The notes under the pieces: model-generated | What the model was told of the DNA's origin: nothing | What the model saw: the letters and a program-made list of their open reading frames with translations, nothing else | The model's database searches: none | Assembly (NCBI RefSeq): GCF_001306915.1 | Contig: NZ_LJTC01000015.1 | Location: 627 to 64,626 of the forward strand | Source: Pseudoalteromonas lipolytica | GTDB lineage: Bacteria > Pseudomonadota > Gammaproteobacteria > Enterobacterales > Alteromonadaceae | Direction: 5' to 3' | DNA: 64,000 nt | Translations under genes and position numbers: made by a program | In this document: one piece after another, positions 13,578 to 28,392 of the stretch | Layout: each line of letters begins with the position of its first letter | Position numbering within the stretch: the stretch's first letter is position 1

Positions 13578-15173
13578 ATGTCAAAAACTATAAACTCTCA
13601 CAACACCCATGAGGGTGGCAATAATGGGTTGTTTAACCGATTTTTAGCCACCGTTGAATTTTTGGGTAATATGCTCCCCCACCCTATCACTTTATTTGCA
13701 ATGTTCTGCGTTGCTATTATCGTTTTTAGCGGCATTGCCGATTGGTATGGTTTAAGCGCTATCGACCCTCGCCCTGAAGGCGCTGCTGGTCGTGACCCTG
13801 ATGGTGTTATTGAAGTTGTCAGCCTACTCAGTGCCGAAGGCCTGCAGCGTATCGTTACTGGCCTTGTTACAAACTTCACCAGCTTTGCACCACTTGGTAC
13901 GGTATTAGTCGCTTTATTAGGTGTAAGTGTTGCAGAACACTCAGGTTTACTCTCTGCTGCAATGCGCGGCATGGTAATGGGCGCATCAAAGCGTTTAGTT
14001 ACTTTTATGGTGGTGTTTGCTGCGATTTTATCAAATACGGCATCGGAACTTGGCTACGTCGTACTAATTCCATTAGCAGCCATGATATTCCATAGCCTTG
14101 GTCGTCACCCTCTTGCCGGTCTTGCTGCGGCATTTGCCGGTGTTTCAGGTGGTTACAGTGCCAATTTATTACTCGGCACCATTGACCCCCTACTTGCAGG
14201 TATCACCACGCCAGCAGCACAAATGATTGATCCAAATTACCAAGTTGGCGCTGAAGCAAACTGGTATTTCATGATGATTTCGGTATTTTTAATTGCCATT
14301 TTAGGCACATTCGTTACCGAGAAAATCGTTGAGCCACGTCTTGGTAAGTACAACCCTGATGAAGCAAGCAACGATTTGCCTAAAAATGATATTGCCGGTT
14401 TAACCGATAAAGAAAAATCAGGTCTTAAGTGGGCAGGTGTGTCACTGTTAGTGGTGTCATTATTACTTGCTTGGACAATTGTTCCTGAAGACGGCATTTT
14501 ACGTAACCCGGAAACAGGCCTTGTTGCACACTCGCCATTTTTAAAAGGCATTGTGGTCTTTATCTTTGTGACTTTCGGTATTCCGGGTTTTGTATACGGC
14601 CGCGTTGTTGGCACCATGAAAAACGATAAAGATGTCATCGATGCCATGAGTAAAAGCATGAGCTCGATGGGGATGTACATTGTGCTGGTTTTCTTTGCAG
14701 CACAATTCGTTGCCTTCTTTAAGTGGACCAACCTAGGTACAATTTTAGCCATTAACGGTGCAGCTCTTTTACAAGCATTAAACCTAACAGGCCCTGAAGT
14801 ATTCGTGCTATTCATTTTAATGTGTGCATTAGTAAACTTAAGCTTAGGTTCTTCATCTGCACAATGGGCTGTAACGGCCCCCATCTTCGTGCCAATGTTA
14901 ATGCTAATCGGCTATGCGCCAGAGACTATTCAAGCGGCGTACCGAATTGGTGACTCGGTTACTAACCTTATCACCCCAATGATGAGCTATTTTGGCTTGA
15001 TACTGGCTGTTGCCACTAAGTATAAGAAAGACATGGGGATTGGTACATTGGTTGCGACCATGCTTCCTTACAGCATGATCTTCTTTATTGGTTGGGTCGC
15101 GTTATTCTACTTATGGGTATTTGTTCTGGGTTTCCCAGTTGGCCCTGAATCACCGATTTACTATCAGCCTTAA
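13578..15173 (+). CDS. AbgT family transporter
   Basis: A 531-residue inner-membrane transporter of the AbgT family, with about nine to eleven hydrophobic segments plus two re-entrant-type loops. Family marks: LGNMLPHPITLFAMFC near the start, ASELGYVVLIPLAAMIFHSLGRHPLAGL, AFAGVSGGYSANLLLGTIDPLLAG, and LGSSSAQWAVTAPIFVPMLMLIGYAPE with DSVTNLITPMMSYF. Known members take up p-aminobenzoyl-glutamate (AbgT) or export sulfonamides and folate intermediates (MtrF). The substrate here is not evident. The start ATG is preceded by a modest GAGAA sequence. It ends at a bidirectional terminator shared with the giant gene on the other strand. Confidence 0.93.
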   Translation: MSKTINSHNTHEGGNNGLFNRFLATVEFLGNMLPHPITLFAMFCVAIIVFSGIADWYGLSAIDPRPEGAAGRDPDGVIEVVSLLSAEGLQRIVTGLVTNFTSFAPLGTVLVALLGVSVAEHSGLLSAAMRGMVMGASKRLVTFMVVFAAILSNTASELGYVVLIPLAAMIFHSLGRHPLAGLAAAFAGVSGGYSANLLLGTIDPLLAGITTPAAQMIDPNYQVGAEANWYFMMISVFLIAILGTFVTEKIVEPRLGKYNPDEASNDLPKNDIAGLTDKEKSGLKWAGVSLLVVSLLLAWTIVPEDGILRNPETGLVAHSPFLKGIVVFIFVTFGIPGFVYGRVVGTMKNDKDVIDAMSKSMSSMGMYIVLVFFAAQFVAFFKWTNLGTILAINGAALLQALNLTGPEVFVLFILMCALVNLSLGSSSAQWAVTAPIFVPMLMLIGYAPETIQAAYRIGDSVTNLITPMMSYFGLILAVATKYKKDMGIGTLVATMLPYSMIFFIGWVALFYLWVFVLGFPVGPESPIYYQP

Positions 15174-15227: not shown

Positions 15228-18200
15228 TTATCGATATGTTCGATAATAACTGCGTCTTATCATTGTCAATGCGAATAATAACAAGATTAAGCTCATTGGC
15301 AGCGTACCACCGCCACTGGTTTTGTGTTCTACACTCACCTGCTTATACGCTTTAACAACCACATTAAATTGTCCTTGTGTTGTTCCGCCATCACCATCTG
15401 AGATAACAAAGGTGACTGTGTCAGTACCTTCAAAACCTGCATTTGGAGTATAGGTAATCGTCCCATCATCGTTAATGACCACACTGCCATTCTCTGCTGT
15501 GGCTGAAATTATAGTGAAGTCATTATTATCTTCATCTGTCACATTTGCCAAAATATCAATCGTGACTGGACTTTGATCATCGGTGCTAACATCAATGATG
15601 GCATCTATCATCGGCGCTTCATTGGCTACGACGTCAACTATCACTGTCGCAAAATCAGCCCCTCCCTGACTATCTGAAATGCTATAACTAATCGTTGCAA
15701 TTCCTAGGTGCTCTGCTTGCGGGACAAAATAAAGTAAATTATTAACAATACTTACTTCACCAATGTCTACTGCTGCGGATGTCAGAATTAACGAATCATC
15801 ATTCGCATCTGTGTCATTCGAGAGTACATCAAGATATGTACTAATGTTGCGTTTAACCCTAACCATATCATCTTCAGCAACCGGTTGAGTATTTGTACTC
15901 ATTGTACTGGCAATACCACTTGGATCTTCGATGATACGATTTACTTTTCCGTCGGCGTCATTTGGGCCACCGTCTTCAATAGTAAGTTGAACACACCAAT
16001 GTCCTTCAGTTAATCCTTGGGTATACTGAGCATCATGTGGTGGTGGACAGAAGCCTTCTGCACCAGGTGCTGATGCAATACTATTGCGACTATCTACGAC
16101 AAACTCAGTCCATCCGGTATGCATTAGCTTACGATATACAGCATTGCTCGGAATAGGTGCAAACTGAGCTATAACAATGCCGACTGACTGACCCGCTACG
16201 GGGATTTGGCTAACGTTAAAGTCAAAGACTCCGCTAGCATAATCAAATCCAGCATCTGCTGTGGCACCTGAACCATAATTCCCGTAATGCATTACTTCTT
16301 GCTCTGACACTCCGGTATTGGTGCCATGTGCTACAAACGCTACATGACCTAGGCTAAGTTGCAAACCTGGCTCGGTTTCCATTAAGAAAAATTCACTTTC
16401 GTTCAGTTTTTCTTGTACAACGTTGAGCGCTAACGAATCAGCATCTAAATAATCAGGTATGCCATCATTATCAGCATCCCCGTAACCTTCTTCATTATCA
16501 GGAATACCATCAAAGTCAGTATCTTCAGAAGATAATTGAGGCATTGAGTCAACAATAGTCAGTTCTAATAGTGAAGAACCCGCTTGTTGTCCGTCAAACA
16601 CGCCGACTTCAAATTGATACGTCCCTAGCTCAAGAAGTTGTGGATCAAAAGTAAAACTCTCTTCAACACTGTCAGTATCGACAATGGCACTATCAGACGT
16701 TAACCAACCATATATGTGTGTATCGGTTAGGTTTGCATCCGTTACTAGTGTCGTTAACGTTACATCACCACCTTGTCTATTTATGATTCGCGTCACTATC
16801 CCTTGCTGATTTGCAAAGACCTCAATGCTTGGCGCAACATTCCCCTCTTCGATGGTAAGAGTATGCTCACCTAATGGACCGACAACAGCATTCTCAGGCG
16901 TTGAAAACTGAAGAACCAGTGTTTCAGACTTCTCATCAATGTCATCAGATGACACGTTAACAATCAGACTCGCTTCACGTTGCCCTTTTTCAAATCTAAA
17001 TTCACCTTCAACTAGGTCATGGTCTGCACCCTCTAGCGCATCTCCAGATACTGTATATGGCACAACCACTGGGTAGTTAACGGCATCACCATTGAGAATT
17101 GCTTTAATAGAAACGGCCGTCCCCTCAGTTGCAGTTTGATTTTTACTAAAGTTAACCTGAGGAATAACATTGATTAACTGCGTTGCAGAAACTTGATCAT
17201 CGCCTTCCCCGGCGCTCCAAATCACAGTGTGAGTCCCCGGTGCAAAGAAACCTTTTGAGCTTGCGGTGACACGAACTGGGTTACCCAGTGCATCCTTCGC
17301 AATAGCAGTGCCCATATTCACTTTGGTGAAAAGACCTTTAGATGCAATTGTTTTGTCTTCTGGTGCTGTAATCGTAATTTCAGCTGCCGTAGACACAACA
17401 GATACCACCAATGTGACTTCAACCACTTCACCATTTGAATCTTTAATTTGATAAGTAATTACAACATCAGCATTCAAGCCAACTGGGGCTAAGTACTCTA
17501 GTTTGTTATCGACAATGCGGATCGTGCCAGCACTCACGGTTGCCTTAACAAGAGTAAGTTCATCACCGTCAACATCAATATCGTTTGCGAGCACATCAAG
17601 CACCACATACTCATTTAAATCCGCATTGATGGTAAAGTTATCTGGCATAGACACTGGCGCATCATTGATTGCGTTAACGACAATAGTTACTGTCGCAATA
17701 TTAGAGTTCAGCATGCCATCCGATACGGTGTAACTGAAACTATCAGTACCATTGAAGTCAGCGTTTGGTTGATACACCAGATGGTTTGCATCCATTATCA
17801 ATGTACCATTACTCACAGGTGTCACAAGATTAAGCGTAACCTCATCACCGTTTTCGTCGAAATAGTTTAGCGAAAAGGTAATGCTTTCATCTTCATCCAT
17901 GCTGAACTGTTCGTCATGGGTAACCGGTGCAACATTCGCGATAATGACAACACTGGTTGCATCTGAGGTAAAGGTTTCTGTATTACCATGGCCATCAACA
18001 TAGGTTACGACAACTGTGATTGTCGCGCCAATATCAGCTTCGGTTAGCATGTACTCTGCAAGCGTTGCACCAGTAATGATTTCGCCGTTACGCATCCATT
18101 GGTAGGTAAACTCACCTACGCCATCTGGGTCTTCGATTGTCGACTCAACAGCTAAGGTTTCACCTTCTTTTGCTTCACCAGTAATACTGATCCCGCCCGT

Positions 18201-21200
18201 GGCTTCATCGTTAACATCGGCCACTGTGATAGCAAAGGTTTGAGTATCGGTTAACCCTCCTGCATCAGTGGCAACTAAGTTGATACTATGAGTACCTACA
18301 TCATCATTACTCGGCGTACCGCTTAGCTCGCCTGTTGTAGGGTCAAAATCAAGCCAACTTGGCAGCTCTAGCGCACTTAATTTATAGCTATCTGCACTGT
18401 CTATATCTTTAACAGTAACAACATAACTATACGCTTCATCTTGTGTAGCCGACGTGACCGGGTGAGATTCAATAACAGGCGCATCATTGACTGCTAACAT
18501 GGTGATAGTCACTGAGGCTGTGTTTGACTGTGCACCTTCATTATCAAGTACAGAGTAAGTAAATGAATCAAAGCCCACATAATTGCTAATAGGCGTATAA
18601 GTAACTGTACCATCTACATTATTGGTAATATGACCAAATGCAGGGTTTGTTACAATATTCACTGAATCCTCATCAAGATGACCATCAATGTCTGAATCAT
18701 TCTGCGTCACATCAATAATCACGCTCTCATCTTCATTGGTCTGGATCACATCATTATTTGCTAATGGTGCATCGTTAACAGCTGTCACCGTAATGAACAC
18801 CTCTGCATGGTTTGACCAAAGGCCTAAATCGTCTTTAACACGATAAGTAAATGTGTCTGCTCCATAACTATTACTATCTGGTGTGTAACTGAACACGCCA
18901 TTGTTCACTTGTACATTACCGTGTTCAGGCTGTATAACAACTTCTAGACTCGTCTTATCAAGGGTGCCATCAACATCGCTATCGTTACCTAACACATTGA
19001 TATTATGAGATGTGTCTTCAAGTAATACGGCAGTGTCATTTTGTGCAACTGGCGCATCATTCACACTATTTACCGTTAAAGTGACTGTCGCAATATTTGA
19101 CATTAAAAACTGATCATCTTTGACACTATATTCAAAGCTATCAGTACCAAAGAAATCTGAATGTGGTGTAAAGCGGATTGTGCTTAACTCTTTATTGACA
19201 GTTAGCTCGCCATGCTTAGGGGCTTGCGTTATCGTCACATTCTCTGTAAGCAACTCACTATCAACATCAATATCGTTGTCAAGAATAGACAACTCAATTG
19301 ATGTATCTTCATCAAGTACACCTAAATCATTGGTCGCCACTGGTGCATCATTAACTTCACCGATAGTCACTAAAACACGTGCAATATTTGACACTGCACC
19401 TGCTTTATCTGCAATACGATACGTAAATGTATCGCTACCATTAAAGTTAGACGTAGGCGTGTAAACAATGCGCTCGTTTTGAACATTTGCTTGACCATTT
19501 TCAGGTGCAGAAACGACTGCTAAGCTTGATAAGTCGAGTGAGTCTCCTTCGTCAATATCAGCATCGTTTAGTGCAACATCAATTTCAATGGCCATGTCTT
19601 CTTCGGTCATCGCGCTATCGCTATTTGCAAGAGGCGCGTCATTAACAGGATTAATAGTAATGGTCACCGTCGCCACATCAGAACGGCCATGCTCTATGTC
19701 ATCGACTGTATAGCTAAATGTATCGGTCCCGTTAATATTCTCATTCGGCGTATAAGTGATCACACCATTTGCCGTATTCAAGCTAGTTTGACCTTGTGTT
19801 GGCGTTGTAACAATCATCACGCTTGCTGGGTTTAGCTTACTATCGACATCACTGTCATTGGCAAGAATATCAATCGCAACACTATTATCTTCATCAACAC
19901 TGGCGATGTCATTTTGCACATCGGGCGCGTCATTCACGTTCTCAACCGTAATAGTGAAAGTTTGCTCAACCGTTGCATTGGCACTGTCAGTGACGGTTAG
20001 CGTCACAGAGTGCACACCGACATCATCATTGCGAGGCGTACCAGTAAGCACACCTGTTGAACGGTTAAACACCAACCAGTCAGGGTAGTTTGTTGCTCCA
20101 TACTTCAAGGTATCGTCTTTATCGACATCGCTTGCGTTCAAGGTATAGATATAGCGATTATCCTCCGTTGCCACTGTAATTGGCGTTGAAGAAATCACCG
20201 GCTCGTCATTCACGTTTACAACCGAGATAGTGAATGATTGAGTATCAAGTGCATTAGCACCGTCTTTGACGCTCAAAGTAACAGCATGCTCACCCACATC
20301 ATCATTGCTTGGTGTTCCAGAAAGTACGCCCGTTGATGGGTTGATCGTCAACCAATTAGGGAGCTTCGTTGCCGCATACGTTAGGGTATCACCTTTGTCA
20401 GCATCCTTTGCTGTTAACGTGTAACTATAAAAACTGTCTTCGGTTGCCGATGTGATTGGCACAGAAGAAATTTCCGGCGCGTCATTCACATTTTCAACCG
20501 TGATAGAGAATGATTGCGAAACAGATGCGCCAGTACTGTCAGTAACAGTTAAAGTAATGGCATATGTACCAATGGTATGCTTATTTGGGGTACCATACAG
20601 TTCGCCCGTAGACCTTGTAAAGCCTAACCATCCAGGGATCTTCGTTGCTGTATAAGTCAACGTATCGCCTTTATCGATATCGCTCGCAACAAGGGTGTAG
20701 CTGTATGGCTGGTCTTGTGTTGCTGCTCTAATCGGCGTGGAAGAAATCACAGGCTTGTCATTCACGTTTTCAACCGAAATCGTGAATGATTGAATGTCAC
20801 TTGCATTTGCCTGATCGGTCACTGATATAGTCACCGTATGATCACCTACATCATCATTAGTCGGTGTACCCGCCAGCAGACCGGATGGGTTTAGCGATAA
20901 CCAACTTGGTAATTGGGTCGCTCTGTATGTAAATGTATCGTCCTTATCAGCATCAGATACTGTTAGTTGATACGAATAAAGCGTATCTTCTGTTGCTTGA
21001 GTAACCGCAATTGATGAAATGCTCGGCGCGTCATTTACACCAATCACCGTAATCGTGCCATTCACTGGCGTTATACTATTGCTGCCATCAGTTAAGTTAA
21101 ATGTAATACCCAGTGAGCCAGAAAAATTAGCCGCTGGTTTAAATGATAAATTTGCAAGTGTAGTGGTGACATCCGCGAGGGATCCACTGACTGTTAGTGT

Positions 21201-24200
21201 CGCATTGTCATTATTATAATTAACGACGGCACTACCACTCGCCGCGCCTGCTAGTAAGCCAGATGTGTTATTAGCAAGTGTAATTGTCAGGGTAACATCA
21301 TCACCTTCTTCATCGGTGATTTGATAATTATCGAATAGTAAGCTTGCGTCGCTGTCTTCTGCAACAGAAAGCGCATAACTATCAAATACTGCTCGGCTGG
21401 ATTTCATCGCCGAAGCCTTGAGATCATTAATAAAATCAGTGAAAGAAATATATAAGCTGTCGTCACTCGCAATAGCGAGTGTAACATTAACTGCTCTATC
21501 TGATGTAGAGCCTGACTGAGTCATCGAATGCCAACCTGTGCCATTAAATCTCATCACTGTAGCTTTTCTGTTTTCTTCATAGTCTGTAAAAGCGACATAA
21601 AGGTTATTATTACTGTCAAACTCAATATCGAGTTGACCAACTCTTCCTTTAGATATGCCTGCTTCGCCTAAAAAGACCCAATCTGTCCCATCGAATGTTC
21701 TTACTGAAGGAATACGTGCGCTGGAATTGTAAGCAAGGTAAGGGATATTATTATTAAAAGCTAAGTCAAGATTAATAACATCTTCAGAGAAGTTCACAGG
21801 CCCTACTTGTTCCCAATTATTATTGACTAACTTTTTAACATTGCCGCTATCAGACTTACCATGATCAACATATGCAAGGTAAGGTGTGTTACTGTCATCA
21901 AATGCTAGTGAGAGATACCTTGGATCACTAGGTGTAAAATCAGTGCCACCCACAGTAAGCCAATTTGTACCATCCCATTTTTTTACAATAGCTTTATTAG
22001 AATAACCAAAATCCTGATAAGCAACATATAGGTTGTCTGCACTATCAATTGCAATTGCAGTATGCTTTGCTTGATCTAGACTAACAGGCCCCTCGCCTAC
22101 AACTAGCCAACTGCCGTTGATAAACTTTTGTACAACAGTTTTACCTCCAAGTGATCTATCCTGATAGATGATATAAGGGGTATTGTGACTGTCTATCGCA
22201 ATTTTATGATGGCCGACAGACCCCGCTGAGAAATTTCGAGGCCCTACATATTGCCAAGAATCACCCTCTAATTTCATTACAGTCACACCGGTTTTATCAT
22301 CGAGATAATCCGCGAAAACCACATAAGGAACATCATTATTATCTAATTTAACTTCAATTTCTTCGGCATACGCTTTAGAAAAAGCCGCATTACCCACAAA
22401 ATCCCATTTGAGCTTATTGGTTATCACTGGCGCATCATTCGTTAATGAAATCGAGATAGCAAAATTTTGATTGGTAACTGGCTCAACACCATCTTCCAAG
22501 CCATCGGCTAGGTCAAACGTGAAGCTATCAGAGTTAGTCTCAGAACCATTGTGTTTGTAGTAAAGGTTTGAATCATACAGCGTTTGCTGGGTAAACGTGC
22601 CATTTACAGCAAGCGCTTCGCCTGAGTCTAAGCTGCCATTATTATTCGTATCAACAAACAAACTGCCATTGCTTGGTGCTGATTTAAGTGTAAATGTAAG
22701 CTCTGCGCCTGTGTCATCAGGGTCTGAGGCTGATAAGTCAAGTGTAGAAATTAGTTTTGTAGTACCTTCATCGATTGAAAGGCCTTTATTAACAGAAACT
22801 GACGGCGCTTTGTTAGGTGTAACTACGTTATAAGTTAAAGTTACCGGCGAGGCGCTCTCTGTGCCATCAGTCAGTTCGTTAGTGAATGTGAATTCACCAG
22901 TATAGTTACTATCAAGATTGAAGGTTAAATTTTTGATTGTTGCTTTTACATCACTAACACTTCCAGAGACTGTTAATACACCGCTGCTTGGCTCGTAGTT
23001 ATAATCAGCCCCACCGCTTGCATTACCTGAAAAGCTCCCTGCGTTGGTATCCGAAAGTGTAATCGTTAACACCACATCGTCAGCGTCTTCGTCTGATATT
23101 ATGAAATCAGCAAACGGATCTCCTATTGAGTCTCCTTGAGTAATTATTCTAGATGAATCTGAGAATGTTGTTGTTGCATATTTCATTACACTGGCAAAAA
23201 AAGTTGAAGTACCCTCAAAATAAATAACATATGGTGTATTTTGGCTATCAAGGGCAAAATGGCTGTAGGTCGTAATTCCTGGAGCAAACACTCTTCTCCC
23301 AACAAACTGCCAAGCATTATTTTCGAATGTTATAACGCTGCCCCCAAATTGATCGGCTTCATTATCTATGAAAAATAAAAATGGTATGTCATTCTCACCA
23401 AATTCAAGCTTAGGGAAACCTGCACCACCTCCAGATACATCCTCAACAACTAAAGACCAACTTGTTCCATCAAATTTATAAATACCGAGCCCGTTAGCAG
23501 AGCTACTATTTTCAGTTCTAGTGCTTAAAAAAATATTGTCATTACTATCAATTGCTATTGACGGTTCAATTGCACTGGTATCTGAAATACCTGGTTCGCC
23601 GACATATACCCAAGATGAGCCATTAAACGACATCACTGAAGCTCCAGTACTAGAGTGAGAGTAATCTCTAAATGAAACGTAAGGCGTATTTGAGCTATCA
23701 AAAGCAATTTCAGTATAGGTTGCCTCTGATGGCGTAAACCCCTCTATACCAACACTTACCCAGTGATTACCATCATATTTTTTTACAACAGCTTTACTTC
23801 CAAAATTTGCATTGTTATAAACAATATGCAAAACGCCATTATTATCAAATGCTAAATTATTGTATAAAATATGCCCACTTGAAACAGGTGAGCCAACATC
23901 CACCCAAGATGTTCCATCAAAACTTAGTACTCTTAATCCTCCGTCATCAGTGAAGCAAATAAACGGGGTGTTATTATTATCAAAGATTATATCCGAGTAA
24001 TGAACAATACTACTTGTAATATCTGTGTTACCGACATGTTCCCAATCCGTACCATTAAATTTTAATACCCTTAAAGGTGAATCTGAATTTCCCGAGAAAA
24101 TTGCCCAGGGTACATCATTAGCATCCATGCTAATGTTTATACCCACAGGAGAGTATCCACCTCTTGTGAACCTAGAGTTACCAACAAATTCCCACCCATT

Positions 24201-24518
24201 ACTTGAAAAACTAGGCGCTGTATTTTTCTTTGTAACTGTTAATTCATCACCCTTCTGGATGTTTCTGTCTGACAAAGAAAGATTATCATCATCCAGTATA
24301 AGCGTACCCGCTTCAGAGATTCGAGCGATAATCACCCTCTCTAGCGGGATACTCGTTTCATCGCTTATTAATTGTCGTAGAGTACCAATACTGTCACTGG
24401 GCTCTACATCAAGCGTAAACGTTTTACTAGGAGCGATAATTGTTATTGGCATAGCCAATATCGACATGGGCGCAATAAGTGCGACTAAGTATAAATATTT
24501 AATAATTGTTGATAACAT
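15228..24518 (-). CDS. Giant secreted multidomain adhesin-like protein with N-terminal ubiquitin-like domain
   Basis: A single open 3096-residue frame. Residues 1-22 are a signal peptide; 23-98 a ubiquitin-like domain (see separate entry). About 105-448: seven ~48-residue propeller-type repeats ending in variants of FDGTSWVYVG. 449-695: cadherin-like repeats (SDEDADDVVLTITL). 700-1040: a second set of seven propeller repeats. 1045-1530: a cadherin-like unit and four putative-Ig (He_PIG) units with LTGTPxNDDVG. 1530-2010: five Big/cadherin units linked by NDAP. Then another He_PIG, an Ig-like, HYR-like and Calx-beta domain (~2455-2560), thrombospondin-3-type calcium motifs DTDFDGIPDNEE (~2665), a choice-of-anchor-type segment and two last Ig-like units. 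The tail SGGGTLPMSLILLLFALTMI + RRS resembles GlyGly-CTERM, implying rhombosortase processing and surface anchoring. Likely calcium-dependent adhesion or matrix function; this role is inferred. Confidence 0.93.
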   Translation of the reverse strand: MLSTIIKYLYLVALIAPMSILAMPITIIAPSKTFTLDVEPSDSIGTLRQLISDETSIPLERVIIARISEAGTLILDDDNLSLSDRNIQKGDELTVTKKNTAPSFSSNGWEFVGNSRFTRGGYSPVGINISMDANDVPWAIFSGNSDSPLRVLKFNGTDWEHVGNTDITSSIVHYSDIIFDNNNTPFICFTDDGGLRVLSFDGTSWVDVGSPVSSGHILYNNLAFDNNGVLHIVYNNANFGSKAVVKKYDGNHWVSVGIEGFTPSEATYTEIAFDSSNTPYVSFRDYSHSSTGASVMSFNGSSWVYVGEPGISDTSAIEPSIAIDSNDNIFLSTRTENSSSANGLGIYKFDGTSWSLVVEDVSGGGAGFPKLEFGENDIPFLFFIDNEADQFGGSVITFENNAWQFVGRRVFAPGITTYSHFALDSQNTPYVIYFEGTSTFFASVMKYATTTFSDSSRIITQGDSIGDPFADFIISDEDADDVVLTITLSDTNAGSFSGNASGGADYNYEPSSGVLTVSGSVSDVKATIKNLTFNLDSNYTGEFTFTNELTDGTESASPVTLTYNVVTPNKAPSVSVNKGLSIDEGTTKLISTLDLSASDPDDTGAELTFTLKSAPSNGSLFVDTNNNGSLDSGEALAVNGTFTQQTLYDSNLYYKHNGSETNSDSFTFDLADGLEDGVEPVTNQNFAISISLTNDAPVITNKLKWDFVGNAAFSKAYAEEIEVKLDNNDVPYVVFADYLDDKTGVTVMKLEGDSWQYVGPRNFSAGSVGHHKIAIDSHNTPYIIYQDRSLGGKTVVQKFINGSWLVVGEGPVSLDQAKHTAIAIDSADNLYVAYQDFGYSNKAIVKKWDGTNWLTVGGTDFTPSDPRYLSLAFDDSNTPYLAYVDHGKSDSGNVKKLVNNNWEQVGPVNFSEDVINLDLAFNNNIPYLAYNSSARIPSVRTFDGTDWVFLGEAGISKGRVGQLDIEFDSNNNLYVAFTDYEENRKATVMRFNGTGWHSMTQSGSTSDRAVNVTLAIASDDSLYISFTDFINDLKASAMKSSRAVFDSYALSVAEDSDASLLFDNYQITDEEGDDVTLTITLANNTSGLLAGAASGSAVVNYNNDNATLTVSGSLADVTTTLANLSFKPAANFSGSLGITFNLTDGSNSITPVNGTITVIGVNDAPSISSIAVTQATEDTLYSYQLTVSDADKDDTFTYRATQLPSWLSLNPSGLLAGTPTNDDVGDHTVTISVTDQANASDIQSFTISVENVNDKPVISSTPIRAATQDQPYSYTLVASDIDKGDTLTYTATKIPGWLGFTRSTGELYGTPNKHTIGTYAITLTVTDSTGASVSQSFSITVENVNDAPEISSVPITSATEDSFYSYTLTAKDADKGDTLTYAATKLPNWLTINPSTGVLSGTPSNDDVGEHAVTLSVKDGANALDTQSFTISVVNVNDEPVISSTPITVATEDNRYIYTLNASDVDKDDTLKYGATNYPDWLVFNRSTGVLTGTPRNDDVGVHSVTLTVTDSANATVEQTFTITVENVNDAPDVQNDIASVDEDNSVAIDILANDSDVDSKLNPASVMIVTTPTQGQTSLNTANGVITYTPNENINGTDTFSYTVDDIEHGRSDVATVTITINPVNDAPLANSDSAMTEEDMAIEIDVALNDADIDEGDSLDLSSLAVVSAPENGQANVQNERIVYTPTSNFNGSDTFTYRIADKAGAVSNIARVLVTIGEVNDAPVATNDLGVLDEDTSIELSILDNDIDVDSELLTENVTITQAPKHGELTVNKELSTIRFTPHSDFFGTDSFEYSVKDDQFLMSNIATVTLTVNSVNDAPVAQNDTAVLLEDTSHNINVLGNDSDVDGTLDKTSLEVVIQPEHGNVQVNNGVFSYTPDSNSYGADTFTYRVKDDLGLWSNHAEVFITVTAVNDAPLANNDVIQTNEDESVIIDVTQNDSDIDGHLDEDSVNIVTNPAFGHITNNVDGTVTYTPISNYVGFDSFTYSVLDNEGAQSNTASVTITMLAVNDAPVIESHPVTSATQDEAYSYVVTVKDIDSADSYKLSALELPSWLDFDPTTGELSGTPSNDDVGTHSINLVATDAGGLTDTQTFAITVADVNDEATGGISITGEAKEGETLAVESTIEDPDGVGEFTYQWMRNGEIITGATLAEYMLTEADIGATITVVVTYVDGHGNTETFTSDATSVVIIANVAPVTHDEQFSMDEDESITFSLNYFDENGDEVTLNLVTPVSNGTLIMDANHLVYQPNADFNGTDSFSYTVSDGMLNSNIATVTIVVNAINDAPVSMPDNFTINADLNEYVVLDVLANDIDVDGDELTLVKATVSAGTIRIVDNKLEYLAPVGLNADVVITYQIKDSNGEVVEVTLVVSVVSTAAEITITAPEDKTIASKGLFTKVNMGTAIAKDALGNPVRVTASSKGFFAPGTHTVIWSAGEGDDQVSATQLINVIPQVNFSKNQTATEGTAVSIKAILNGDAVNYPVVVPYTVSGDALEGADHDLVEGEFRFEKGQREASLIVNVSSDDIDEKSETLVLQFSTPENAVVGPLGEHTLTIEEGNVAPSIEVFANQQGIVTRIINRQGGDVTLTTLVTDANLTDTHIYGWLTSDSAIVDTDSVEESFTFDPQLLELGTYQFEVGVFDGQQAGSSLLELTIVDSMPQLSSEDTDFDGIPDNEEGYGDADNDGIPDYLDADSLALNVVQEKLNESEFFLMETEPGLQLSLGHVAFVAHGTNTGVSEQEVMHYGNYGSGATADAGFDYASGVFDFNVSQIPVAGQSVGIVIAQFAPIPSNAVYRKLMHTGWTEFVVDSRNSIASAPGAEGFCPPPHDAQYTQGLTEGHWCVQLTIEDGGPNDADGKVNRIIEDPSGIASTMSTNTQPVAEDDMVRVKRNISTYLDVLSNDTDANDDSLILTSAAVDIGEVSIVNNLLYFVPQAEHLGIATISYSISDSQGGADFATVIVDVVANEAPMIDAIIDVSTDDQSPVTIDILANVTDEDNNDFTIISATAENGSVVINDDGTITYTPNAGFEGTDTVTFVISDGDGGTTQGQFNVVVKAYKQVSVEHKTSGGGTLPMSLILLLFALTMIRRSYYRTYR
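24225..24452 (-). other. Ubiquitin-like domain at the mature N-terminus of the giant protein
   Basis: Residues 23-98 of the giant protein align by eye with eukaryotic ubiquitin almost end to end. After predicted signal cleavage at SILA the chain begins MPITI (ubiquitin MQIFV). Then KTFTLDVEPSDSI matches ubiquitin KTITLEVEPSDTI, an I-x-D-x-x-x-IP helix end follows, and LSLSDRNIQKGDELTV matches TLSDYNIQKESTLHLV. A longer loop replaces the region around ubiquitin residues 42-52. The chain continues TKKNTAPS, with no C-terminal Gly-Gly, so it cannot be conjugated and acts as a fold only. Confidence 0.85.
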
Positions 24519-24642: not shown

Positions 24643-25317
24643 TTAGTTAAACTGATACTTAGCGCCAATTGAAAACATTGACGTTGAGTAATCATCTAAC
24701 CTAGCTTGGTCGTAACTTAAGAAAAGTAGAGTATTTTCAAATATTGAATAGCTGATTTCACCGCCAAAAGTTACACTATTGCCGCTGCGTTTCGCTTTAA
24801 AAACATCTGATGTATTGATTTGGTATTGGTAATCTTGTTGCCAATCAAGGTACCCAAGTTTACCTGTTAGTGATAGGTCATTTGTTAGAGGCCATGATGC
24901 TAAAACAACTAGGTGTGGCCCCTTTGCAGATTCAGGGTAAGTTGCTTGCATTACATCATGAAAATTGTCTAAATCAGTCACCTCTCCTGTTAAACGAAAA
25001 TTTCTATCGCCAAAATCTAAATAACCCAGTTGGACTGAAAATATAGAATCTAGCTGATATCCAAATCCTAGTTGATAACCTACGTCAGCATCTTTCACTG
25101 ATAAGTTTTCATAATTGACACTCTGTGCAACAAGCTCATTTTTAACAGCGTCTGCCTTAAAATCAGTCGAAGCGTGGCCTATTTGGCCATACAAATACCA
25201 ATTATTTTCTTTAGCTTGCCCATCTGTACTGAATAGTGAGCCACCAGAAAAAAGAATCAGTATAAAAGCCCATGAAAAACAACTAGAACTTTTAGTTAAA
25301 AAGTATTTATGGTTCAA
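24643..25317 (-). CDS. Outer-membrane eight-stranded beta-barrel protein (OmpA-TM/OmpW-like)
   Basis: An exported barrel of about 224 residues: signal peptide (NHKYFLTKSSSCFSWAFILI..., cleavage near GQA), then alternating beta strands such as NNWYLYGQIGHASTD, VGYQLGFGYQLD, FSVQLGYLDFGD, LSLTGKLGYLDWQ and a final SMFSIGAKYQFN ending in Phe-Asn; aromatic termini are typical for barrel insertion. There is no ATG; the long frame opens with TTG at 25371, but TTG at 25317 has AAGAGAG upstream and puts the signal peptide at the N-terminus, so it is preferred. It precedes the giant adhesin gene on the same strand by about 125 bases, possibly in one transcript. The function is unknown. Confidence 0.72.
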   Translation of the reverse strand: MNHKYFLTKSSSCFSWAFILILFSGGSLFSTDGQAKENNWYLYGQIGHASTDFKADAVKNELVAQSVNYENLSVKDADVGYQLGFGYQLDSIFSVQLGYLDFGDRNFRLTGEVTDLDNFHDVMQATYPESAKGPHLVVLASWPLTNDLSLTGKLGYLDWQQDYQYQINTSDVFKAKRSGNSVTFGGEISYSIFENTLLFLSYDQARLDDYSTSMFSIGAKYQFN

Positions 25318-25613
25318 AATAAAGCACTCTCTTAATCTAATTAAACGGGCACAGAATTGATTTAAATACAATAATATGTAGATTTAAAAGTCAGAATATC
25401 AACTCTGCATTTATGTTTTACATTAGATGAAAAGATGAGTGATCCGAATCAGAATCTTCCTAAATTTATGAGCTTGTGAAATTTCCGACAGACATTGTTA
25501 TTAGTTATTTGGTGATTTTGAATAATTGACAAAAAATCAATTCTAAATAACTAGTCATAGTTTGAAATAAATGGGCTATTATTATTCATAAAATAATGAT
25601 TCCCGCTTTATTA

Positions 25614-26591
25614 ATGAAAAATAGCTATAAATTTAAATTTATTTTTTATACCCCTATTATTTTCTGTATCTGCTCAGCGGTTTTTGCAAACCCGACTAAG
25701 CAGCTCGAATCGGCCTTTGCCACGTCGTTGGTTTTAACCGATGGTGATAGTATTACCTTGGGTTTTGGTGATTTTGATCCACAAACACTGTTTGACTCGC
25801 AACATGCCAACAAAGATGAAGACAGTATTGCGCTTAGAAAAGAACTCAAACTCTACAGTATTCCTTACACTTGGCAGCTTGATGAGCCTGTTTATCAACA
25901 CAAACTAAGCCTGACCAGCAAAGTAAGCTATTTAAATCAATCAGATTTCATTTCGCTTTTTGATAATGTGGCTGACGACTATATTTCAGAAACAGTGTAT
26001 AACGGGATGATCGGTTTTAATGCCGAAAAAGCACTTGGCTCTAAATGGTCATATCAATTTGGTTTTAATACTCACTACTTACATTACAACAATGATTATG
26101 AGTACAACTCTCCCGAGTCTAGACGTAATTTTAAGCCTTTAGCTGAAAATCTTTACACCAACCTCAATAGTAATGCACTGGTGTTAAACCCTAATGCGAC
26201 CATGATCTATCGCTTACCTAGGCATTGGGGCTATTACGAGTACAAACTTAACTTTAATTATTACTATGGCTGGGCACTCTCTCACCCTGATGGAATAAAT
26301 AATGCGGCGCCTGAAACATGGCGCACACTCAATGGTATTAAAGCTAAATTTAACATGTTCAAAATCGGGGTTTTTGAGCAAGCTTTTTACATCAAAGGCC
26401 AACGTATCGATTTAGGCGGCGATAGTCGGGTAGCATTTGGGACCGATCACTTTTATGAATACGGTATTGGCTTTTTATGGGATAGCAGAAAATGGACGTC
26501 ATGGTTCGATAACTTTGGTATTGGTATCAACATTCACAATGGCAGTAGCCTAGATGGCGCTGCTATTGTCTTGTACTTTAATGAAATTTAA
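25614..26591 (+). CDS. Solitary outer-membrane autotransporter-type beta-barrel protein
   Basis: A ~325-residue exported protein with signal peptide (MKNSYKFKFIFYTPIIFCIC, cleavage at VFA) and no passenger domain. Strands such as KLSLTSKVSYLNQ, WSYQFGFNTHYLHYNN, YYEYKLNFNYYYGWAL and FDNFGIGINIHNG then AAIVLYFNEI fill the remainder. Length and pattern fit the solitary autotransporter barrel family of Vibrio and Alteromonadales. An ATG 18 bases upstream (25596) is in frame; the later ATG gives a normal signal peptide, but neither has a clear ribosome-binding site. A TTGACA at 25526 could be a -35 element. No known partner; the function is unknown. Confidence 0.78.
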   Translation: MKNSYKFKFIFYTPIIFCICSAVFANPTKQLESAFATSLVLTDGDSITLGFGDFDPQTLFDSQHANKDEDSIALRKELKLYSIPYTWQLDEPVYQHKLSLTSKVSYLNQSDFISLFDNVADDYISETVYNGMIGFNAEKALGSKWSYQFGFNTHYLHYNNDYEYNSPESRRNFKPLAENLYTNLNSNALVLNPNATMIYRLPRHWGYYEYKLNFNYYYGWALSHPDGINNAAPETWRTLNGIKAKFNMFKIGVFEQAFYIKGQRIDLGGDSRVAFGTDHFYEYGIGFLWDSRKWTSWFDNFGIGINIHNGSSLDGAAIVLYFNEI

Positions 26592-26663: not shown

Positions 26664-28392
26664 ATGAAACATCACCTCGCAATTGCATGTTCATTGCTTG
26701 CCTTAACGGCTTGCGATAAAACCTCTGAACAAACAGCTAAAACGCTTCCACTGCAAGTGAGTGCAGCAGATACCATTTATTATGGTGGTGATATTCTTAC
26801 AATGACTGGCGATGAACCAGAGTATGCGCAAGCAATCGCAACGCAAGGCGACAAAATTATCTTTGTGGGTGATAAAACTAAAGCCCTTGAGCATAAGTTT
26901 GGTAAAACGAAGCTGATTGATTTACAAGGCAAGACCCTAATGCCTGGCTTTGTAGATGGCCACAGTCATGTGTACGCGGTAGGCTTGCAAGCCATGGTAG
27001 CCAATGTATTACCTAGTCCAGATGGTGATGCTAACAGCGTTGAGCAAATCGTTAATATTCTCACAGCTGCACAGAATAACCCTGATTACACCACTTTTAT
27101 TGAAAAAACAGGCGCTATCTTAGGATTTGGGTACGATGATGCTGAGCTTGATAGATACCCTACAAAAATGGACTTAGACCGAGTTAGCACCGAAAAGCCT
27201 GTGATCATCATTCATACCTCAGGGCACTTAAGTGTGGCAAACACTAAAGCGTTAGCCATGGCTGGCATCGATGAAAACACAGAAAATCCTGACGGCGGGA
27301 TAATTCGTCGCATGACAAACTCACAAGAGCCCAATGGGGTGCTCGAAGAAAACGCGCACTTTGGATTACTGTTTAAACTTATGAAATCTGTTGATCCTGA
27401 TTTACAAGATTTAATGCTGCAAGAAGGGCAAAAACTCTATACAAAATACGGCTACACAACGGCCCAAGAAGGACGTGCTACCCAAGAAGCTTATGACTCG
27501 ATGGTAAGAGCATCAAAGGCAGATAAATTCGTGATTGATATAGTTGCCTATGCCGATATGGCCACCAGCAGCGGATTTATGGACTCAGCCTATAACAGTA
27601 ACACCTACTTTTCGCATCGGGGGTGTAAAACTTAACTTTGATGGCTCACCGCAAGGTAAAACCGCTTGGTTATCTCAGCCATACTTAAAAGCCCCCGAAG
27701 GCCAAGAGCAAGGTTATGCAGGCTACCCTACTTTTAATGATGAGCAAGCTTATCAGTATATTGAAACGGCCTTTGCCAATGACTGGCAGGTAATGACGCA
27801 TGCAAATGGTGATGCCGCCATTGAGCAGTTTTTAAATGCCGTTGAAAGTGCCAATAACAAGCTCGGCAAAAAAGATCGCCGGCCAGTACTCATTCATGGT
27901 CAAACAATTCGTCAAGATCAGGTAAATCGTCTTAAAGAATTAGGCATATTTCCATCGCTCTTCCCAATGCATACGTTTTATTGGGGCGACTGGCATGTAA
28001 ATTCAGTGCTAGGTCACCCCCGTGCCGATTTTATTTCACCCACTCAAGCTGTTCGCAAACAAGGATTAATGTTTAGCACCCATCATGATGCACCAGTCGC
28101 CCTACCTGATGCACTACGTGTATTAGATGCAACTGTTAACCGCACAACCCGTACAGATCAAGTATTAGGGCCAGAGCAACGTGTTTCTGTGTATACTGCA
28201 CTACAAGCAATGACCACATGGCCTGCGTATCAACATTTTGAAGAAAGTTCAAAAGGGCAATTAAAACAAGGGATGCAAGCAGACTTGATAATTCTTGATA
28301 AGAATCCGCTAAAGATAAAGCCTGTAGAGCTACATAACTTACAAGTGTTAGAAACCATTAGTCGTGGTGAAACCGTCTACAGCAAAAATTAA
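26664..28392 (+). pseudogene. Lipoprotein amidohydrolase (YtcJ-type, Amidohydro_3), broken by a frameshift
   Basis: Two frames together encode one amidohydrolase. The first (to the stop at 27633-27635) has a lipobox LLALTAC, the strand LMPGFVDGHSHVYAVG metal motif HSH, and continues to MDSAYNSNTYFSH. The second frame picks up at RIGGVKLNFDGSPQGKTAWL and carries the later metal His sites (MTHANGDAAI, VLIHGQTIRQ, STHHDAPVALPDA) to the C-terminus. The break falls at about 27609-27620. Inserting one more copy of the eight bases TTTTCGCA there would restore NTYFSHFRIGGVKL, so a slippage deletion of one repeat unit is a simple explanation. A sequencing error is also possible. The family usually covers 550-580 residues, as the repaired gene would. 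Confidence 0.85.

Follow-up and report, generated by a model that had tools for sequence, protein, structure and literature searches.

A ubiquitin-derived domain at the head of a giant gene

The DNA analysed here, a 64,000-nucleotide stretch from Pseudoalteromonas lipolytica (the window), contains an open reading frame (ORF) on the minus strand, 15228..24518, which encodes a protein of 3,096 amino acids (aa) that is predicted to begin, once mature, with a domain derived from ubiquitin. Ubiquitin is a tag used within animal and plant cells and is treated as a eukaryotic, intracellular signal. A sequence-only reading of the window had marked a ubiquitin-like domain (Ubl) at 24225..24452 (minus strand), and this span corresponds exactly to residues 23-98 of the translated ORF. 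Residues 1-22 (24453..24518, minus strand) read as a signal peptide in the translation, with presumed cleavage just before the Met that matches Met1 of ubiquitin; by eye, the junction is SILA followed by MPITI. A signal peptide directly before ubiquitin position 1 is also the layout of BfUbb, the secreted ubiquitin of Bacteroides fragilis, and, again by eye, of five further loci (L006, L007, L008, L011 and L015).

The ubiquitin profile PF00240 (curated cut-off 25.4 bits) matched the N-terminal 104 aa with 32.9 bits (E 5.5e-8) and the whole protein with 25.8 bits (E 9.2e-6), aligning residues 25-98 to profile positions 1-70 of 72; both scores agree with the assignment of residues 23-98 to this family, and profile searches of 14 control genomes gave no PF00240 match in any of them. 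When the domain was compared with PDB sequences using phmmer, ubiquitins, ubiquitin fusions or engineered variants occupied the best 60 of 301 rows throughout, with single-ubiquitin chains at about E 1e-5 and lower E-values coming from poly-ubiquitin chains. An AlphaFold2 (AF2) model of residues 23-104, calculated from a 41-row alignment of the window and 40 other bacterial rows, reached a mean predicted local distance difference test (pLDDT) of 88.9 and a predicted template-modelling score (pTM) of 0.71. Its order of strand-strand-helix-strand-strand-strand is that of ubiquitin, and the best 50 of 1786 Foldseek rows were ubiquitins and engineered variants (top row: E 1.1e-7, template-modelling score (TM) of the query 0.85, root-mean-square deviation (rmsd) 1.1), although 3 of these 50 superposed poorly (TM 0.26-0.27). 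The beta-grasp topology anticipated by the sequence-only reading is thus predicted by the model.

Within the genus, PF00240 was found in 3 of 108 genomes, namely in the window's own (32.3 bits) and in two from other species, which carry orthologs of the giant gene, G057 (58.7 bits; P. shioyasakiensis SDCH90, NZ_CP077771.1) and G023 (57.6 bits). The ubiquitin domains of these orthologs, MPITIIAPTQTFTLDVEPSDSIETVKGLVEQQTSIEQARQIITFNGQTLENGRSLSDYNVQKNSTLNVTKS and a near copy, share the long ubiquitin motifs LENGRSLSDYNVQKNSTLNV. These orthologs bear on the alternative that an ordinary beta-grasp domain came to resemble ubiquitin by convergence or chance, which had originally been offered alongside capture from a eukaryote. 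While the window copy scores barely above the Pfam cut-off on the full protein (25.8 vs 25.4 bits) and 4 of 16 orthologs described below (P0015 and P0017-P0019) lack a precomputed PF00240 tag, other orthologs score 57-59 bits with the long motifs in common, and ubiquitins are the top PDB matches both by sequence and by fold. Given the orthologs and the fold retrieved by Foldseek, we rejected a convergent beta-grasp domain and consider this explanation extremely improbable. Profile, predicted fold and orthologs together support the proposal that a giant, presumably secreted protein starts, when mature, with a domain derived from ubiquitin, and the ubiquitin ancestry of the window domain is secure.

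Several features of classical ubiquitin are missing from the window copy. Gly-Gly is absent, as the sequence-only reading had noted: the domain has no C-terminal Leu-Arg-Gly-Gly and runs on into TVTKKNTAPSF. The Ile44 patch, which is required for classical ubiquitin-receptor binding, is replaced at Leu8 (Ala), Ile44 (Ser), His68 (Thr) and Val70 (Thr) in a MAFFT alignment whose insertions make the register at Ile44 uncertain. The own genome gave no match to PF00179 (E2) or PF00443 (ubiquitin hydrolase), and neither did the control genomes. With respect to the PF00240 family at large, the window domain shares the above-threshold profile match and the predicted fold, and differs in its probable extracellular location, the loss of the conjugating tail, the replaced Ile44 patch, and insertions in its second half.

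Predicted propellers, stalk and anchor of the giant protein

The Ubl is followed by a putative, lectin-like propeller that we describe as a hypervariable tip cassette (residues 99-460; 23139..24224, minus strand). AF2 predicts an all-beta structure (pLDDT 80.1, pTM 0.86) on an alignment of two sequences, the sole other row being a second, homologous region. The ten best Foldseek matches in the PDB were Photorhabdus PLL lectins, propeller glycoside hydrolases and lyases, and human LGI1 (E 5e-10 to 1e-9, TM 0.57-0.65, rmsd 5-7, identity 11-15%). The fucose-binding PLL/PHL lectins provided the best of these (E 5e-10, TM about 0.57-0.62 in the top rows), at 12-14% identity and rmsd 5-7, and in contrast to them the window propeller is part of a giant protein. 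On the strength of this model, glycan binding by the propeller is plausible. The homologous second propeller region, at approximately residues 701-1040 (21399..22418, minus strand), is 32% identical to the first and is missing or substituted in some orthologs.

A stalk of He_PIG and tandem-95/cadherin-like Ig repeats occupies approximately residues 1051-2330 (17529..21368, minus strand) and leads into an anchor-proximal region (residues 2331-2900; 15819..17528, minus strand) with a Calx-beta domain at 2459-2557 and a choice-of-anchor U domain at 2756-2870 (42.5 bits vs a cut-off of 32). Over the whole protein, Pfam reported ubiquitin (25-98), cadherin-like, Big_9, He_PIG and Calx-beta domains, and NCBIfam reported tandem-95 repeats and the choice-of-anchor U domain. 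The C-terminal tail, TSGGGTLPMSLILLLFALTMIRRSYYRTYR (15231..15320, minus strand), resembles a GlyGly-CTERM signal: by eye it is Gly-rich, then hydrophobic, then basic, and TIGR03501 (GlyGly_CTERM) matched it at the right location over positions 1-21 of 22, with 11.5 bits and hence below the cut-off of 15.5. The SDCH90 ortholog scored 11.0 bits, also below this cut-off, and the ortholog of P. shioyasakiensis A316 was not among the matches. A rhombosortase is encoded elsewhere in the own genome (rhom_GG_sort, 163.3 bits vs a cut-off of 84); all 14 control genomes gave matches to this model, none of them above cut-off. GlyGly-CTERM/rhombosortase substrates such as VesB (PMC3237569, PMC6219818) show the same succession of Gly-rich motif, hydrophobic stretch and basic end, and the window genome likewise has the rhombosortase. 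VesB is an enzyme, whereas the window protein presents a giant Ig/cadherin stalk with a ubiquitin and propeller tip, its tail stays below the model cut-off, and its processing is predicted. The reading of the Ubl as the tip of an anchored protein is supported by this anatomy, with the anchor as its weaker link.

The gene just upstream of the giant gene, 24643..25371 (minus strand), encodes an OmpA-like outer-membrane barrel (PF01389, 52.7 bits). The barrel gene adjoins the giant gene in G057, G023 and A316, with close orthologs (54%) in G023 and G057, and by eye a barrel-like gene also stands beside L109, another protein headed by ubiquitin. As a query, the barrel matched 94 of 108 genus genomes at E <= 0.001, and in 56 of the 108 (a count of listed rows) a match, mostly weak, fell within an ORF of more than 1,000 aa. 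The anchor-proximal region (query residues 2330-2900) retrieved 811 matching proteins, of which the best 120 were examined and comprised 16 orthologs and 104 chassis homologs. A C-terminal barrel homologous to the window's upstream gene is present in 49 of the latter, a GlyGly-like tail in 43, and neither in 12, some of which have barrel-like ends; since tails were counted by regular expression after the barrel carriers had been removed, the absence of proteins with both is true by construction. None of the 104 has a listed PF00240 tag or ubiquitin motifs near its N-terminus. On these sequences, barrel and GlyGly tail look like alternative anchors. The split arrangement in the window, a tail on the giant protein and a barrel in a separate gene, suggests a barrel partner, and the OmpA-like protein is a possible one.

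Allelic variation of the tip

When residues 1-110 of the G057 ortholog were searched against protein sequences, 18 matches were returned. Two of them, P0002 and P0003, are long proteins of a different type and were excluded from the comparison; the other 16 are orthologs and belong to Pseudoalteromonas or Pseudoalteromonadaceae wherever an organism is named, with names like Ig-like domain-containing or tandem-95 repeat protein. The presence of the domain in related Pseudoalteromonas proteins, which the sequence-only reading had raised, therefore extends to 3 of 108 genomes by PF00240 and to 16 orthologs by protein search. Twelve of the 16 bear a precomputed PF00240 tag, and the four without one are of the window's diverged type. 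The propeller query matched the same 3 of 108 genomes, and the propeller regions of G057 and G023 are 56% identical to that of the window.

Among the five alleles closest to that of the window (P0015-P0019; protein sequences from one phylogeny), variation is unevenly distributed. Residues 1501-3096 are 98-100% identical to the window, in contrast to 28-100% for the propeller (residues 99-460). The same division runs through the Ubl: its first half, residues 23-56 (24351..24452, minus strand), is constant, with 33-34 of 34 positions identical (97-100%), whereas the second half, residues 57-98 containing strands 3-5 (24225..24350, minus strand), retains 24-28 of 42 (57-67%). Within the window group, 20 of 21 variable Ubl positions fall at mature positions 35-76 (Fisher p 7e-6, with non-independent positions). 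In P0016, the Ubl allele is that of P0015 and the propeller allele that of the window.

A comparable pattern separates SDCH90 from A316, both deposited as P. shioyasakiensis. From residue 1101 on the two are 90-93% identical in aa and 89-90% in nucleotides; at the latter value, genome identity might place them in separate species. Their propeller regions, in contrast, share 29% (aa) and 47% (nucleotides), and residues 461-1100 share 60%, so that the variable zone reaches past the first propeller. The Ubl halves are 94% (first) and 84% (second) identical, and the strikingly variable second half is limited to the window's own allele group. Conversely, SDCH90 and G023, different species in the genome set, are 84% identical in the propeller region vs 64-82% from residue 1101 on. 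This discordance between tip and stalk points to recombination of a tip cassette.

Tip polymorphism is also expected under conflict between bacteria. BfUbb, a secreted, Gly-Gly-less ubiquitin, is reported to inhibit other strains of B. fragilis (PMC5705921), and a review ascribes antibacterial activity both to extracellular ubiquitin and to an oyster ubiquitin without Gly-Gly (PMC10892293). The window protein could by analogy attack or block related strains, with tip variation setting the choice of target. BfUbb is, however, a free protein of 76 aa, and the window domain is fused to a probably anchored protein of about 3,000 aa; in addition, a scan of ten neighbouring ORFs recognised no immunity gene. 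We regard such antagonism as improbable.

Secreted ubiquitins in other bacteria and a proposed role

PF00240 searches of samples from successively wider taxa, which overlap and each include the own genome, found matches in 7 of 395 genomes of the family, 5 of 394 of the order, 5 of 369 of the class and 2 of 398 of the phylum. Judged from the sequences, a signal peptide followed by ubiquitin is present in the family in the own genome, G023, G434, G432 and G460, as well as in the diverged G128 below the Pfam cut-off; the order sample yielded the own genome and G785, the class sample the own genome and G974, and the phylum sample the own genome alone. Inspection by eye gave GlyGly-like tails for G434, G432 and G128 and a PEP-CTERM-like one for G460; the gene of G974, which is also that of L019, has an IPTL-CTERM tail above the Pfam cut-off. 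Secreted proteins that start with ubiquitin, including giant ones, are thus present in further genera of this family and order. A collection of phages gave no ubiquitin match, and among 9 matches in viral_contigs four (L125, L127, L131 and L132) have the signal-peptide layout by eye.

Some PF00240 matches were set aside. L014, L016 and L017 lie inside other ORFs, which we take to encode a ribosomal L23-like protein, a formyltransferase and a peptidase, respectively; L009, L012, L013 and L099 lack a signal peptide, as does L018, a weak ubiquitin-like stretch in an ORF of 94 codons. L009 (G167), in which the signal peptide is lacking by eye, is an N-terminal ubiquitin fragment (profile 10-44) in an ORF of 633 aa with many near-identical repeats. 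L012 and L013, found in two genomes of a single genus within the order, are short ubiquitin-like ORFs with an in-frame TAG within the match. In viral_contigs, L129 and L130 encode proteins of approximately 250 aa with an N-terminal ubiquitin, no signal peptide, and then a further region.

A scan of genome_contigs (one genome each for 84,980 species) confirmed 274 stretches, the best 80 of which were kept; given this selection and scan patterns taken from six such domains, the conservation figures that follow are biased upward. Read in frame, these 80 mostly consist of a signal peptide, MQIFVKTLTGKTITL and then diverse regions. By a hydropathy rule, a signal peptide precedes ubiquitin in 63; the rule fails the exported-looking L073, L079, L080 and L082 as well as L054, whose ORF starts near a contig end. 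An A-x-A-like site lies directly before ubiquitin in 57 of the 63, and the Arg-Gly-Gly tail is kept in just three. Over 72 residues the 63 share 59-71 positions with human ubiquitin (median 67). Lys6, 11, 27, 29, 33, 48 and 63 are kept in 62, 63, 63, 62, 60, 59 and 61 ORFs, and Leu8, Ile44, His68 and Val70 in 61, 57, 63 and 52. Among all 80, Pfam recognised 23 autotransporter barrels, four IPTL-CTERM, three SLH and two type IX secretion system (T9SS) tails. The sequence-only reading had implied an exclusively eukaryotic, cytosolic family and a single local capture; secreted ubiquitin is instead found in many bacterial phyla, and on this distribution we rejected a capture unique to the own genome.

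Contamination was also considered as the source of this wider set; against it, 63 ORFs pass the signal-peptide test and 17 of these are, by record title, not from metagenome-assembled genomes (MAGs), one of them being a single-cell genome. Five loci (L027, L037, L039, L048 and L070) do look eukaryotic or cytosolic, having no signal peptide and retaining Arg-Gly-Gly. Two further groups stand apart by their record titles: L025 and L029, with signal peptide and ubiquitin, are in records titled archaeal (Methanotrichaceae/Methanothrix MAGs), and L053, L062, L081 and L084, with an N-terminal ubiquitin, homologous downstream parts and no signal peptide by the hydropathy rule, are titled Actinomycetota, Acidimicrobiia/-ales or Bifidobacterium.

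The composition of these genes bears on their age. The GC content at third codon positions of the ubiquitin part tracks that of the rest (56 ORFs; r 0.94, slope 1.03), and across 1,953 pairs the median aa identity is 87.5%, with fourfold-site agreement of 28.6% vs 26.3% expected from composition. Ten families with homologous downstream parts, drawn from all 80 rather than solely the 63, provided 106 non-independent pairs, in which the median identity is 91% for ubiquitin vs 32.6% downstream, with 30% agreement at the fourfold sites of ubiquitin; 105 of the 106 show higher conservation in ubiquitin than downstream. Such protein identity combined with near-random fourfold sites argues for long residence in bacteria under strong purifying selection, unless the ubiquitin cassette was repeatedly replaced and then ameliorated, and suggests, at the level of sequence comparison, selection to stay ubiquitin in the wider set.

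Two further roles of the domain can be considered. A passive cap, that is, an N-terminal module that folds fast, resists proteases and serves to shield the tip or help secretion without a ligand of its own, would agree with the high stability of ubiquitin and with its place at the start of the mature protein in all 63 signal-peptide ORFs, before quite different passengers and anchors. Constraint on the fold alone should keep neither the exposed lysines and His68 across phyla nor ubiquitin as the more conserved part in nearly all family pairs; these objections apply to the wider set and less to the window copy, and overall we consider a purely passive cap unlikely. The retention of the classical surfaces in the 63 ORFs, despite loss of Arg-Gly-Gly in all but three, and the family values of about 91% vs 33% would also fit mimicry, in which eukaryotic grazers or hosts would recognise the displayed domain through their ubiquitin receptors or extracellular ubiquitin-binding proteins. 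The window copy, however, has all four patch residues replaced (with the caveat on Ile44 given above), and the retention itself was scored on the upward-biased best 80 of 274, leaving mimicry very doubtful in our view.

Profile searches, which are free of the pattern bias, also retrieved diverged secreted members (L006, L007, L008, L010 and L011), and two classes can be distinguished: a conserved one with near-human ubiquitin in many phyla and a diverged one comprising the window, L002, L003 and these five, in which most Ile44-patch residues are changed (L011 keeps Ile44, by eye). A phylogeny resolved the group of the window, L002 and L003 (100/100) and a few small groups, and with 10 of 84 inner branches starred it did not yield a count of captures. 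We tentatively suggest that ubiquitin might be a widespread, selected surface module: unrelated lineages in many phyla would show a near-unchanged, non-conjugating ubiquitin at the distal end of autotransporters or sorted proteins, with lysines and Ile44 patch kept to be read by a partner, and Pseudoalteromonas could represent a second stage, in which this constraint was released and a variable recognition head evolved.

For the window domain itself, we propose, with a probability of somewhat under 0.6, that a eukaryote-derived ubiquitin behind a Sec signal peptide now serves as the non-conjugating cap and recognition tip of a polymorphic, giant surface adhesin. A ubiquitin gene would have passed from a eukaryote into bacteria, where fusion placed it immediately after a Sec signal peptide; the domain, having lost its conjugating tail, would now be the most distal part of a giant surface protein, at its N-terminal tip. 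Once secreted, this protein would be cleaved by rhombosortase and retained at the outer membrane, perhaps together with the barrel, and Ubl and propellers would face outward. There the Ubl may act as a compact folded cap and part of the recognition head rather than as a protein tag, and variation of its second half and of the propellers might alter what the head binds, the most likely targets being glycans or surface proteins that belong to algae, animals, grazers or other bacteria. On the sequences compared, the tip cassette is exchanged between strains, and the stalk is the more constant part.

Several points weigh against this proposal. Ligand, secretion and surface location are deduced from sequence, the direction of transfer from distribution, with a tree of few starred branches, and the propeller model from two sequences. 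The GlyGly_CTERM scores of 11.5 and 11.0 bits against 15.5 lower our confidence slightly. In addition, the variable Ubl half, known from five alleles of one phylogeny, could reflect relaxed constraint and recombination instead of ligand choice.

BfUbb is titled unique, and it is reported to lack Gly-Gly and to have a signal peptide ending exactly at ubiquitin position 1 (PMC3352274, PMC5705921). The window protein shares these two features and a eukaryote-like ubiquitin in a bacterium, and differs from the free 76-aa BfUbb in being a protein of 3,096 aa headed by a more diverged Ubl with a variable second half. Ruminococcus albus 7 also encodes a near-N-terminal ubiquitin on a completed replicon (WP_013483628.1, plasmid pRUMAL01), in contrast in a gene of approximately 246 codons and a Gram-positive host. 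This product is named a ubiquitin family protein, and with the PF00240 tags on 12 of 16 orthologs the ubiquitin match is already visible in databases; in the open-licence literature, we found no published account of a fused or anchored secreted ubiquitin, and BfUbb was the sole bacterial case met there. Secreted ubiquitin, by these data, is not confined to one bacterium, and in several families it is the most conserved part even though mostly without its conjugation tail, which raises the question of what reads ubiquitin outside the cell. The window may offer a natural counterpart to engineered ubiquitin binders, with ubiquitin as the variable scaffold.

On its other side, the giant gene adjoins an AbgT transporter gene (13578-15173, plus strand). 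Three Pseudoalteromonas records of a plasmid collection match the query over the AbgT gene only, and the giant gene may therefore be an accessory insertion; in P. shioyasakiensis the giant-gene locus is on a replicon of 860-900 kb filed as a plasmid. An Amidohydro_3 amidohydrolase is split in the window over two overlapping plus-strand ORFs, 26664-27635 and 27544-28392 (profile 2-209 and 221-472), and is annotated as a single coding sequence at the corresponding place in SDCH90. Beyond the OmpA-like gene and on the opposite strand, 25596-26591 (plus strand) encodes a solitary autotransporter barrel (Omp_AT, 286 bits), which is annotated at the same place in A316.

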